From Psychrobacillus sp. FSL H8-0483 (GTDB taxonomy: Bacteria; Bacillota; Bacilli; Bacillales_A; Planococcaceae): 64,000 nt of DNA. The position numbers and the translations under genes were made by a program. Location of the stretch: positions 1,037,501 to 1,101,500 of the forward strand of contig NZ_CP152052.1 of assembly GCF_038637725.1 (NCBI RefSeq), given 5' to 3'. The stretch's first letter is position 1; each line of letters opens with the position of its first letter. Below the pieces are notes generated by a model, which worked only from the letters and a program-made list of their open reading frames with translations, had not been told where the DNA came from and searched no databases. This document shows, piece by piece, positions 6,932 through 56,567 of the stretch.

Positions 6932-7189
6932 ATGGAAACGATATCTTTATCAACACAAATACTAATGGCCATCTTTGCTCCTGCACTACTAGTCGTGTTA
7001 TTTACACGTATTACGTTCAATCATTATGTTGCGTTAATATTGACGGTCGCATTGTTCGCAGCTTCGGTTTACGCGGGTTACACGCATCGATGGTGGATAT
7101 ATATTCTAGATGCGGCGTCCTTAACAGCAGGATTTTGGTACGCAACCAATATGAAAACTAATGATAAGAAGAAAAAATCCGCCTCTTAA
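6932..7189 (+). CDS. csbA: CsbA-like small membrane protein (DUF2198)
   Basis: An 85-residue protein with three hydrophobic segments and a lysine-rich tail (KKKKSAS). The pattern LVVLFTRITFNHYVALILTVALFAASVYAG, encoded at 6989-7078, resembles B. subtilis CsbA, a sigma-B-controlled membrane protein of unknown function. It starts 9 bases after minJ with GGAGAA upstream. In B. subtilis csbA neighbours uvrBA; here a terminator and a repeat array follow, so synteny breaks. I see no sigma-B promoter in front of it. Confidence 0.75.
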   Translation: METISLSTQILMAIFAPALLVVLFTRITFNHYVALILTVALFAASVYAGYTHRWWIYILDAASLTAGFWYATNMKTNDKKKKSAS

Positions 7190-7204
7190 AGAGAGCGGAT
7201 TTTT
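7174..7204 (+). terminator. Terminator overlapping the csbA stop codon
   Basis: AAATCCGC...GCGGATTTTT forms a short stem whose loop contains the csbA stop codon (7187-7189). Confidence 0.8.
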
Positions 7205-7263
7205 CTTTGGAATGAAAGATGATCAAGGGAATAGCAAATGGTGTGATCCTAATTGCAAGATAA

Positions 7264-7458
7264 CCGTTACTTCGCAAGATAGAATTGCTTACTCGCAACA
7301 TTACGATGTGTACTCGCAAGATAGAATTGCTTACTCGCAAGATTACTATGCTTACTCGCAAGATAGAATTGCTTACACGCAACATTCAAGTGCTTACTCG
7401 CAATATTACTATGCGTACTCGCAACATTCAAGTGATTCCGGGCAACATTACTATGTGT
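7264..7458. repeat. 21-bp tandem array, class I (TACTCGCAA), nine units
   Basis: The core TCGCAA recurs at 7272, 7293, 7314, 7335, 7356, 7377 (ACGCAA), 7398, 7419 and, degraded, 7440. Each step is exactly 21 bases. Between cores the sequence alternates among GATAGAAT-, CATTACGA-, GATTACTA- and CATTCAAG-like segments ending in TGCT or TGTG. The array lies between the convergent csbA and M20 peptidase genes. It stays open in several frames only because 21 is a multiple of 3. A second class I array is at 32331-32507. Confidence 0.9.
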
Positions 7459-7504
7459 AATCATAAGTTCCATCCCCAGACTCACGAATTCATCCTCTAA
7501 TTAC

Positions 7505-11447: not shown

Positions 11448-11554
11448 TTCTCATCTTTCAAGCGAAATTCGCTTGCAGGAATTGGCACAGTGTTCAAATT
11501 GAACCTGCTGCCGAAACGTCATAGGGCCTGCCCCTCGGTTTCTCTGGATAAGAA
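11448..11554 (-). promoter_or_regulatory. SAM-I riboswitch (S-box) controlling metNIQ
   Basis: The minus strand carries the hallmark segments CTTATCCAGAGAAACCGAGG, GGCCCTATGACGTTTCGGCA, GTGCCAATTCCTGCAAGCG and GAAAGATGAGAAG. P1 forms from TTCTTATC (11554-11547) and GATGAGAA (11455-11448). It is followed by an intrinsic terminator at 11423-11372. In this class SAM binding stabilises the terminator, turning methionine uptake off. Confidence 0.97.
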
Positions 11555-24113: not shown

Positions 24114-24275
24114 CTAGATTAATCGGGGAGTCGTCCGATTAGGCTGCCAGCCATCCGATTATATGGTAAAGCCACCCGATTATTTAGTTGAACCATCCGA
24201 TTATTCGGGTAAACCACCCGATTATGTGGTTATGCCATCCGATTATTCGGCTCAACCATCCGATTAAGGGGAATA
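24114..24275. repeat. 21-bp tandem array, class II (CCATCCGATTAT), seven units
   Basis: The core CCGATTA occurs at 24135, 24155, 24176, 24197, 24218, 24239 and 24260: one step of 20, then five of exactly 21. Units read like CCATCCGATTAT-NNGG-NNNA with CCACC/CCATC alternating. It has the same period as the class I arrays but no sequence similarity to them. It lies between a terminator and the amylase-like gene; the rest of the 24029-24497 gap is AT-rich with no gene seen. Confidence 0.88.
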
Positions 24276-30170: not shown

Positions 30171-30194
30171 CTATTTTGGGGGAGATGTTTGGTT

Positions 30195-32321
30195 ATGCAA
30201 ATGAATCAACAAGATCAAAAAAGTCCTTTAGAAACGTACGGTCGTAATCTAATTACTGCAGTGAGAGAAGGAAAGATGGATCCCGTTATCGGTCGTGATC
30301 AAGAGATTCGAGATGTTATTCGGATTTTGTCTAGAAAAACAAAAAATAATCCGGTTTTAATTGGAGAACCTGGTGTAGGGAAAACAGCCATTGTAGAAGG
30401 ATTAGCACAACGTATTGTCCGAAAAGATGTACCGGAGGGCTTGAAAGAGAAAGAAATATTTGAATTAGATATGAGCTCCCTCATTGCAGGGGCGAAATAT
30501 CGAGGAGAATTTGAAGAACGATTACAAGCGGTATTGAAGCAAGTAAAAGAGAGCGAAGGACAGATTATCTTATTTATCGATGAAATCCATACAATTGTAG
30601 GAGCTGGAAAATCAGACGGTGCCATGGATGCTGGTAATATGTTAAAACCGATGCTAGCTCGAGGAGAATTACATTGTATTGGTGCAACGACATTAGATGA
30701 ATATCGTATGTATATTGAAAAGGATCCTGCGTTAGAGAGAAGATTTCAACAAGTACTCGTACGAGAGCCATCTGTTGAAGATACAGTTTCTATTTTACGC
30801 GGGTTGAAAGAAAGATTTGAATTGCATCATGGTGTACGTATACATGATAGAGCGATTGTCGCTGCAGCGCAGCTTTCTAATCGTTATATGACAGAACGCT
30901 TTCTTCCAGACAAGGCAATTGATTTAGTAGACGAGGCATGTGCAATGATTCGAACAGAAATAGATTCCATGCCGCAGGAGTTAGACGAAGTTACGAGAAA
31001 AATGATGCAGCTGCAAATAGAAGAACAAGCGTTAATAAAAGAAAAAGATGCTGCTAGTCAAAAAAGATTAGAACAATTACGTCAAGACTTAGCAGAACTA
31101 GAGCAATCAACCAGTGAAATGAGAAACAAATGGGGGCAGGAAAAAGAAGCGATTCAAGTAATTCAGCAAAAAAGAGAAGAGTTGGATCGATATCGTAGAG
31201 AATTGGAGGAAGCTGAAAATAAGTACGATTTAAATAAAGCAGCAGAACTTCGTCATGGAAAGATACCTACGCTAGAAAAAGAATTACTAGTCTATGAGCA
31301 AGAAGTAAACAATGATACAGACACGCGCTTACTACGAGAAGAAGTAACTGTCGATGAAATTGCTTCGATTATTTCAAGATGGACTGGCATCCCAGTCACA
31401 AAACTTGTCGAAGGCGAAAGAGAAAAACTTTTGCGATTAAAAGAAACGCTTGGAGAACGAGTAGTTGGACAGGATCAAGCGGTTCAATTAGTGACGGAAG
31501 CTGTTTGGAGAGCTAGAGCAGGTATAAAAGATCCACAAAAACCGATTGGATCCTTCCTATTTTTAGGACCTACTGGTGTTGGAAAAACAGAACTTGCCAA
31601 ATCATTGGCTGCCAACTTATTTGATTCGGAAGAGCATTTTATTCGTATCGACATGTCAGAGTATATGGAAAAACATAGTGTATCGCGACTAGTAGGCGCT
31701 CCTCCTGGCTATATTGGATATGAAGAAGGTGGTCAGCTGACGGAAGCGGTACGCAGAAATCCTTATTCCGTTGTTTTATTAGATGAAATTGAAAAAGCTC
31801 ACCCTGATGTTGCGAATATTTTATTGCAATTAATGGATGATGGACGAATTACGGATAGCCAAGGAAGGATCGTTAATTTCACAAATACAGTTGTCATCTT
31901 AACATCTAATATTGGTTCGCAATATCTTGGAAATACGACTGGTAAAGTAGGGGAAGAGGAAGAGACTCTTGTCATGTCTGCACTTCGAGCGCACTTTAAG
32001 CCCGAGCTTTTAAATCGTATGGATGACATCATTATGTTCCATTCATTGACGACACAACATTTTGAAAAAATCGCAGAGAAATATGTGAAGCAGCTACAAA
32101 AAAGATTGCAAGAACAAGAAGTTACATTGGAAGTGCAAGATAATGTCTTTAAGTGGATTGTAAATGAAGGAACGGATGCAGCATATGGTGCAAGACCTTT
32201 AAGACGATTCATCCAACGTAATCTAGAAACCGCTGTAGCTAAACTGCTAATTGGTGGAAATGTTCTTCCAGGAGGCACTATTGGAGCGAGTGTAGAAGAT
32301 GGACAATTGATTGTAAAATAA
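30195..32321 (+). CDS. clpB: ClpB-type AAA+ disaggregase lacking the N-terminal domain
   Basis: A 708-residue Hsp100 protein. NBD1 has Walker A GEPGVGKT and Walker B LFIDEIH; a full-length coiled-coil middle domain (about 245-365) follows; NBD2 has GPTGVGKT and [11 protein letters not shown]. The middle-domain length and the [10 protein letters not shown] linker mark it as ClpB, not ClpC. The usual N-domain of about 150 residues is absent: the protein begins at SPLETYGRN, equivalent to the start of NBD1, and upstream DNA is promoter. There is no ClpP-binding loop evident. ATG 30195 follows GGGGGAG. CtsR control is predicted. Confidence 0.88.
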
Positions 32322-32330
32322 CTATCTATG

Positions 32331-32507
32331 TTACTCGCAATATTAGGAAGCATATTCGCAAGATAGGTTGGATTTTTCGCAACATTATGAGGAATACTAG
32401 CAATATTTAAGCTATGCGCAATATAACGAGCGTTACTCGCAACATTTCGAAGCATATTCGCAAGATAGAGTGGATTACTCGCAATATAATGTGGAATCCT
32501 CACATTT
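32331..32507. repeat. 21-bp tandem array, class I (TACTCGCAA), second locus
   Basis: The core TCGCAA or a variant lies at 32335, 32356, 32377, 32398 (TAGCAA), 32416 (GCGCAA), 32437, 32458, 32479 and, degraded, 32500. All steps are 21 except one of 18. It begins directly after the clpB-like stop codon, before the terminator. The consensus matches 7264-7458, about 25 kb away. Confidence 0.88.
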
Positions 32508-32513
32508 CAAAAT

Positions 32514-32548
32514 AAAAACAGCTCCCAACAAGGGGGGAGCTGTTTTTT
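32514..32548. terminator. Terminator between clpB-like gene and DUF2929 gene
   Basis: AAAAACAGCTCCC and GGGAGCTGTTTTTT form the stem; A and T tracts on both sides suit the two convergent genes. Confidence 0.85.
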
Positions 32549-41372: not shown

Positions 41373-42797
<1,425 letters not shown>

Positions 42798-52389: not shown

Positions 52390-52740
52390 TGATTGTAGTG
52401 GAAGAAGGCGACTCCAGCGAGAATAGCGTGAGCTGAAGGCCCCGCAGGAGCGAACAAAGGAACAAAGGCTATGAACGCCACTTCAAATGCAAGGCAATCT
52501 AAGATCGCCGTGTCCTGCTCCTGCGCAAAGCTCGTCGCAAAAGTTCTATGCTCCTGCGCAAAGCTCGTCGCAAAAGAACTGTGCTCCTGCGCAAAGCTCG
52601 TCGCAAAAGAACTTTTGCGGCAACGATTGCATGACCCACATCCTGTGGGCCACAATGCCTTCGTGACCAATATCGTGTTGGCCAGAGGAGACTGAAGCCA
52701 TGCCTCGGAAAGCGTCCGTCTGGAACGGAAATCAATACAT
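52390..52740. repeat. Palindromic intergenic repeat, copy B
   Basis: It contains GGCGACTCCAGCG, CCCCGCAGGAGC, ACAAAGGCTATGAACGCCA, TTCGTGACCAATATCGTG and CGGAAAGCGTCCG in the order seen in the reverse complement of 56379-56567. A 33-bp tandem block is inserted in its middle. Confidence 0.8.
52517..52615. repeat. 33-bp tandem repeat, three units
   Basis: Units starting GCTCCTGCGCAAAGCTCGTC at 52517, 52550 and 52583 differ only in their last five or six bases (GTTCTAT, GAACTGT, GAACTTT). The period is exactly 33. It lies inside repeat copy B. Confidence 0.92.
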
Positions 52741-55942: not shown

Positions 55943-56378
55943 GAAGGGAATAGAAGTATTACTTTTCTACATGCTAGACTATTGGTAATGGAATCACTTA
56001 CTCTTTGTCCAAAGCGATTCGATTTAGCTTGCACTTTTTTTAGGTTGTATTTTGTCATTTGATAAGGTTAGACGTCTAATGTATGGCGAATTTGTGAAAG
56101 GTAGCTCTAATACATTGTATTTCTAAATGGGGCATGCTAAAGTAAGAGTGTGAAATAAATCACAAGATAACATACACCCCTTTGTTTGAACGTGAACATT
56201 TCTCCCATCCCCTTTGTAAAATGAAAAACCCTTTCCTAACTGAGGAAAGGGTTTTTCTATGTTTATTTTTTGTAAGAGGCTCTGTTAAATGAGGCTATTA
56301 TTTTTTGAAACATATAATTAATGATGAAACATGATCGTTATAGAGCTTTTTGATTAAATATAACATCTAGGTGATTAC
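55943..56378. other. Gene-free spacer with an extra hairpin
   Basis: No coding region seen. AAAAACCCTTTCCT-AACTG-AGGAAAGGGTTTTT at 56224-56257 is a bidirectional terminator with no gene next to it, perhaps left after loss of one. Confidence 0.6.
56224..56257. terminator. Orphan bidirectional terminator
   Basis: A perfect 14-base stem with A and T tracts on each side and no adjacent gene on either strand. Confidence 0.8.
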
Positions 56379-56567
56379 GTTGCAGGCGGACGCTTTCCGC
56401 GGGCGGTCCGTGAGCCTCCTCAGGCCGACAGGATGTTGGTCACAAAGGCGTTGCCACACGAGGTGGCGTTCTTAGCCTTTGTTCCTATGTGAGCTCCTGC
56501 GGGGTCTCACCTGGACACGCTTTTCCCGCTGGAGTCGCCGCCTTCCACTCCCATCACCATAAAATAA
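56379..56567. repeat. Palindromic intergenic repeat, copy C (inverted)
   Basis: Begins GCAGGCGGACGCTTTCCGCG and ends GCTGGAGTCGCCGCC, the reverse complement of the ends of copy D. The interior GTGGCGTTCTTAGCCTTTG and GAGCTCCTGCGGGG match copy B. Confidence 0.85.

Follow-up and report, generated by a model that had tools for sequence, protein, structure and literature searches.

Two class I arrays of 21-bp units lie in the window, a 64,000-nucleotide stretch of the chromosome of Psychrobacillus sp. FSL H8-0483 (Table 1). Array 1 is flanked by a DUF2198 gene (Pfam), which we take to be of the CsbA family, and by a convergent M20 amidohydrolase gene; array 2 is flanked by clpB and a convergent DUF2929 gene, with a terminator directly after it. 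The earlier note on this DNA had described nine units between csbA and the M20 gene in exact 21-bp phasing, and a second array of nine after clpB with one 18-bp step. Both were recovered: all eight steps of array 1 are 21 bp, its last unit being decayed, and the steps between the clear units of array 2, read by eye and matching the step count, are 21, 21, 21, 18, 21, 21 and 21 bp (six of seven are 21). The exact core TACTCGCAA is present in six of the nine units of array 1 (at 7290, 7311, 7332, 7353, 7395 and 7416), the others carrying ACTTCGCAA (7269), TACACGCAA (7374) and the decayed TCCGGGCAA (7437), and in three units of array 2 (at 32332, 32434 and 32476). These nine copies, against 0.45 expected, are all that the window contains, and none of 100 shuffles of the window reached at least nine.

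Table 1. Positions of the arrays and of neighbouring features in the window
Feature	Position	Strand	Remarks
Array 1, class I	7269..7460	+	Nine 21-bp units, core TACTCGCAA; opposite strand TTGCGAGTA
Array 2, class I	32331..32507	+	Eight clear units and one decayed, single 18-bp step
Class II array	24149..24266	+	21-bp units, core CCAYCCGATTA, between tandem genes
Stem-loop with T run, overlapping the csbA stop	7172..7206		Found by eye; similar stem-loop in relatives
Terminator between clpB (+) and the DUF2929 gene (-)	32513..32548		Scan: stem-loop 32522-32537, + strand
99-aa open frame spanning array 1	7161..7460	+	No Pfam match at E<=1; judged spurious

The stem-loop at the csbA stop is probably a bidirectional terminator common to csbA and the M20 gene; the terminator scan called 0 terminators at 7172..7206. 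The ClpB frame (30189-32321, 710 aa) aligns to the NCBIfam ClpB model from position 146 onwards, and its score of 1174.8 is under the model cut-off of 1232.1; the N-terminal part is absent from the frame. Elsewhere in the window, a 33-bp tandem repeat of three copies with 95% matches (52516-52613) has a length compatible with a coding repeat. Rfam models identified a SAM riboswitch (11448-11554, -), a T-box leader (42576-42789, -), a RoxS/RsaE small RNA (56150-56256, +) and, far from the arrays, one copy of Bacillaceae-1 RNA (56425-56491, -).

Arrays with several cores recur at one period

The arrays had been proposed to belong to a dispersed repeat family, and their recurrence across the genome (a single contig of 4.137 Mb) bears this out: three TTGCG words spaced at 21 bp occur 35 times, at 9 loci. 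When 1.257 Mb of the genome were scanned at lags of 13-30, lag 21 yielded 23 arrays and every other lag 0-6; the sample comprised the window and 60 stretches, some of them picked for holding or neighbouring class I hits. Two of the 23 look coding, at 717.6 kb and at 880.5 kb (an exact 21-bp duplication).

Sorted by eye, the cores fall into about six families, nearly all of period 21: I (TCGCAA), II (CCGATTA), III (GCGACAAA), IV (GGTCTCG), V (weak) and VI (TTCCAATA). They are not all independent, since classes I and IV intergrade: an array at 664 kb alternates both, and some class IV units have TTGCG replacing TCTCG. At 726 kb (L074, 11420-12056), class III arrays and hairpin-like sequences lie together inside a longer tandem repeat. 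Families I, II, III and IV are all present in a 200-kb sample of G009, another species of the genus, where the scan gave five hits at lag 21 (one looks coding), two at lag 20 and one at lag 27. A further core, CTCTCGTATA, is found in other species of the genus.

Across the family, 32 of 261 genomes, from 7 of the 19 genera, contain the TCGCAA triple; they include 15 of the 19 genomes of the own genus, and one genome of another genus has it 283 times. The reversed pattern gave 0 in all 19 genus genomes and was positive in 10 genomes elsewhere, so the triple is not a clean pattern outside the genus. Pairs of TGGTCTCG were found in 5 of the 261 genomes, four of them in the genus (4 of 19), with the reversed control positive in two genomes (G048 and G069). 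In 100-kb samples of each of two other genera, no non-coding lag-21 array was detected (one coding-like hit in G035, none in G143); class I triples are present in both genomes outside these samples. The paired core is scattered in many phyla among the matches listed, which are named genome contigs.

Along the chromosome, 17 of 25 class I loci from G000, G003 and G012, which have dnaA at coordinate 1, lie at 0.4-0.6 of the replichore arm (G013 and G015, without dnaA at the start, were set aside). The loci are partly orthologous and the clustering was not significant in any single genome (KS p 0.13, 0.19 and 0.07); we regard it as suggestive only.

Spacing of the units

A search of ten genus genomes for three TTGCG words gave 288 occurrences at 21-bp spacing (156 in seven genomes, 132 in three), against 0 at 22 bp and 1 at 20 bp; the reversed-pattern control, with four spacing searches pooled, gave 1. 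A set of 191 loci, mostly of the own genus and partly of other genera of the family, also gave 57 distinct class I arrays. Their steps are of 21 (356), 18 (38), 20 (13), 19 (9), 17 (3), 23 (2) and 22 bp (0), and longer and shorter ones also occur. As these arrays were preselected for at least two steps of 21 bp, the proper comparison is with the independent searches at 20 and 22 bp. Families II, III, IV and VII contributed 6, 22, 12 and 12 steps of 21 bp, with few of 19 or 20 and none of 22.

At least one 18-bp step is present in 14 of the 57 arrays, and steps of 17, 19 and 20 bp in 3, 4 and 5, respectively; none has a step of 22. A 102-bp super-unit (four steps of 21 and one of 18) recurs in several species, and super-units of 101, 122, 123 and 124 bp are found elsewhere. 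The earlier note had argued that 21 bp, as two helical turns, would put all cores on one face of the DNA. The period agrees with this, but simple phasing does not predict off-phase 18-bp steps together with absent 22-bp steps, which weakens the argument.

A conserved core and a free spacer

We compared the units within each of the 47 class I arrays, of 57, that have at least four distinct ones. Mean identity is 0.52-0.88 for the nine positions that flank TTGCG and 0.31-0.40 for the seven that remain; TTGCG itself, the selection word, is uncounted. The conserved part covers about 14 bp around TTGCG in each 21-bp unit. The remaining 7 bp are near background, with a mean identity of 0.346 vs 0.290 predicted from composition. 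The larger set thus agrees with the earlier note, according to which the inter-core segments vary while core and period are kept.

The pattern was recovered when arrays were taken without the TTGCG word: in 19 arrays from G000 and G009, covering all families, conserved columns adjoin one another more often than chance would give (combined p 3e-10), and nine of the 19 fall below 0.05 alone. The contiguous block was not significant for array 1 (p 0.11), array 2 (p 0.31) and eight of the other 17.

Turnover of cores at orthologous sites

Comparison with relatives covered selected loci, with one genome per species. A close M20 orthologue (at least 68%) was found in 7 of 19 genomes, and csbA lies beside it in five of the six relatives. 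In each of these seven genomes, TTGCG in the gap after the M20 gene is on the M20 strand, with the cores TTGCGAGTA in G000, TTGCGATTC in G010, TTGCGATT in G018, GTGTTGCGCATTT in G002 and GTGTTGCGGGAATG in G011; G012 has 47 bp identical to G011, and G009 a single unit. These arrays hold site and orientation across species and so look inherited rather than newly seeded.

The clpB 3' end was located in 19 of 19 genomes and examined by eye to 420 bp past the stop. Class I arrays or remnants of at least two units were present in G000, G003, G017, G008 and G010, CTCTCGTATA arrays in G013, G015, G016 and, weakly, G006, and a single unit in G014. The contig edge cuts the site in G007 and G011, and no array was seen within 420 bp in seven of the 19 species (G001, G002, G004, G005, G009, G012 and G018). 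We conclude from these orthologous gaps that a site can be inherited while its core and the presence of the array turn over.

Cores follow the genome. Cores compared across 38 genus arrays have a similarity of 0.498 for arrays of one genome vs 0.384 for arrays of different genomes (p 0.0005, the floor of 2000 permutations). Removal of the TTGCGATT type, a variant common to many species, left 26 arrays and the values 0.574 vs 0.401 (p 0.0005). All four csbA-M20 arrays with enough units (G000, G002, G010 and G011) are nearer the other arrays of their own genome than each other (0.58/0.39, 0.61/0.40, 0.44/0.27 and 0.72/0.39). The spacers stay unlike, which makes homogenisation by gene conversion alone a poor account.

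Units are gained and lost whole, as had been suggested from the window: one extra 21-bp unit is found in 11 of 20 copies of a composite repeat dispersed in G010. These copies (L308-L327) are alike over about 500-930 bp within 1.2-kb pieces; every fetched copy has a class I array, and the consensus also contains a class IV array and an GATTGGAGC-type repeat. Bacillaceae-1 RNA (Rfam) was detected in three of ten scanned 1.2-kb pieces (L309, L311 and L316). Two further occurrences lie about 2 kb (L027, 7050-7230) and about 8 kb (L026, 17494-17561) from an array.

Position relative to genes

Position counts were based on crude ORF calls. Among 55 class I arrays, five of them from the own genome, 22 lie in tandem, 21 in convergent and 3 in divergent gaps; subtraction of the four inside ORF calls and the five at a locus edge leaves 46 classifiable arrays. 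Against own-genome gaps of at least 120 bp (277 tandem, 99 convergent, 117 divergent), these show a convergent excess (Fisher p 2e-4) and a divergent deficit (p 3e-3); once orthologues had been roughly collapsed by hand, the p values were 0.012 and 0.0097. For the own genome, 20 of the 23 lag-21 arrays, of all families, were taken into the analysis; those at 717.6, 880.5 and 719.6 kb (a short class III array) were omitted. Eleven are tandem, seven convergent and none divergent (p 0.058 for the convergent and 0.0085 for the divergent class). The two unclassed arrays, at 694.7 and 695.0 kb, look divergent and are excluded from these 18.

A candidate binding array and its alternatives

A kept core, a free spacer and a fixed length resemble the sites of a DNA-binding protein whose bound neighbours touch. 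Our tentative reading, to which we give somewhat less than an even chance, is that a putative sequence-specific protein with a boundary or nucleoid role at gene 3' ends recognises the arrays as tandem sites in double-stranded DNA. Each 21-bp unit would present a core of about 14 bp to this protein; in the spacer of about 7 bp, the letters would hardly matter and the length would. With a spacing of two helix turns, adjacent bound molecules could touch, and an array would then be covered by a short filament or roadblock. At gene 3' ends and in convergent gaps, this would serve to bound transcription or to anchor the nucleoid. Units would come and go whole, and the specificity of the recogniser would drift from species to species. 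Cores that follow the genome and not the site, with unlike spacers, point to a drifting recogniser over gene conversion, and rarity in divergent gaps suggests a boundary or nucleoid function more than promoter control.

A protein-binding array had already been proposed in the earlier note. The conserved core, the free spacer and the near-exact period, all read from sequence, are consistent with such an array, but the strict helical phasing that went with it is weakened by the 18-bp steps and by the ease with which arrays are lost. Loss also counts against our own model, as the arrays at the clpB site are dispensable, missing in 7 of 19 species and reduced to one unit in one. So do the off-phase steps, the non-significant contiguous block of both window arrays, the sharing of TTGCGATT by many species and the intergrading of classes I and IV. 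For the same reasons, 18-bp steps and ready loss, a neutral alternative stays alive, which we rate as possible but less probable. The arrays would be neutral or selfish minisatellites, of no use to the host, whose units multiply by slippage or unequal recombination, sometimes within larger dispersed repeats; the core would be kept as recombination needs homology, and spread within a genome would give genome-specific cores. Exact recent duplications of units and of the 102-bp super-unit are what this account expects, as are the one-unit differences among copies of the G010 repeat, the orthologous sites that are empty in many species and the clustering of cores by genome. It is at odds with cores kept beside spacers little above background, with several unlike cores at one period and other spacings nearly absent, and with the conserved site and orientation of the csbA-M20 arrays.

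We consider it unlikely that the arrays act as RNA, namely as 3' untranslated elements whose core is bound by a protein or small RNA (as a sponge, or in stability or termination). Read along the gene that precedes the terminator, the core is on opposite strands in arrays 1 and 2, and a single gap of G003 contains both core orientations, which argues for DNA rather than RNA. A fixed 21-nt period would be unnecessary for RNA binding. Twelve RNA folds of six array pieces, on both strands, gave z-scores of -1.99 to +1.08, unremarkable against shuffles, and structured RNA is therefore unsupported; Rfam at gathering scores returned no match over the arrays of the window or over those of 15 loci scanned. 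The layout nevertheless suits an RNA element, since each window array sits between a stop codon and a terminator (for array 1, the stop of the M20 gene and the terminator that it probably shares with csbA; for array 2, those of clpB), and divergent gaps are under-represented. In addition, 52-nt repeats are reported to be transcribed in B. coagulans (PMC8161180).

Very improbable is the proposal that the arrays encode heptad-repeat peptides (21 bp being seven codons and 18, the commonest odd step, six), for despite the 99-aa frame across array 1, stops occur in 56-115 of 356 class I units in each of the six frames, 13-23 of 46 class I arrays are fully open in any given frame, and steps of 17, 19 and 20 bp and super-units of 101, 122 and 124 bp are not triplets; heptad coding was accordingly rejected for class I. 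One minus-direction frame has fewer stops than column-shuffled units (56 vs 102, sd 7) and another has more (99 vs 55); departures in both directions look like linked columns. The statement that no gene function explains the arrays stands so far.

Returning to the binding-site model, a more specific form of it would have a family of boundary proteins coat 21-bp arrays at gene 3' ends, with specificity co-evolving with the core and spacing conserved. We hold this doubtful. If true, each species would rewrite the recognition sequence of a chromosomal boundary that itself persists, and physical spacing would be the conserved character.

Comparison with known systems

Protein-bound direct repeats near two helix turns are familiar from plasmid iterons, which sit at replication origins with a Rep gene alongside; the arrays described here are dispersed on the chromosome. 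CRISPR arrays have repeats of about 23-50 bp and spacers of similar length, and were rejected as an identification for a 21-bp unit with a 7-bp variable part. The TAACTGA repeats of Beggiatoaceae (PMC4679880) resemble the arrays in being intergenic and direct and in repeating one short fixed word, and have been proposed as binding sites; the seven-base word is mostly just upstream of starts, in contrast to about 14 bp per 21-bp unit, seldom in divergent gaps, here.

The closest likeness is to the repeats described by Subirana and Messeguer (2021; PMC8161180), who reported tandem repeats of constant length, 20-21 or 52 nt, in 176 Bacillus genomes. These are variable and species-specific in sequence, contain short signals and are mostly non-coding; their function is given as unknown, two helix turns are noted, and a protein that polymerises along DNA or small RNAs are offered as ideas. 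An earlier paper (Subirana and Messeguer 2020, J Bacteriol) is cited there; PMC6749651 surveys prokaryote satellites, and PMC8625621 is listed among the literature on constant-length bacterial repeats. The openly licensed literature yielded nothing on the present arrays under other descriptions. The 52-nt repeats are alike in constant length, species-specific sequence and short signals, and differ in period (52 against 21).

The 20-21-nt Bacillus repeats agree further, in a constant period with several sequence families per genome, species-specific sequence, a short signal (TCGCGG in B. weihaiensis) and a mostly non-coding nature. By step counts, arrays 1 and 2 fit the definition used in PMC8161180, a minimum of four repeats of which 60% or more are of one length (+/-1). 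One length with several families is found here too, the excess being at lag 21 only with about six families, V weak. Sequence is species-specific by core similarity, with TGGTCTCG pairs in 4 of 19 genomes, but TTGCGATT is widely shared; a short characteristic sequence is present, and class I is non-coding. We conclude that the arrays belong to this described kind of constant-length repeat. Orthologous gaps with different cores, 20- and 22-bp spacing controls, core and spacer lengths, position relative to gene ends and 102-bp super-units are absent from the text of PMC8161180 and are added here. Bacterial repeats of constant length and variable sequence have been known from the literature since 2020-2021, with no function assigned; this genus offers the same gap with different cores, with one decayed unit or with none, plus a clean spacing control, and such gaps and the control make a statistical curiosity testable.
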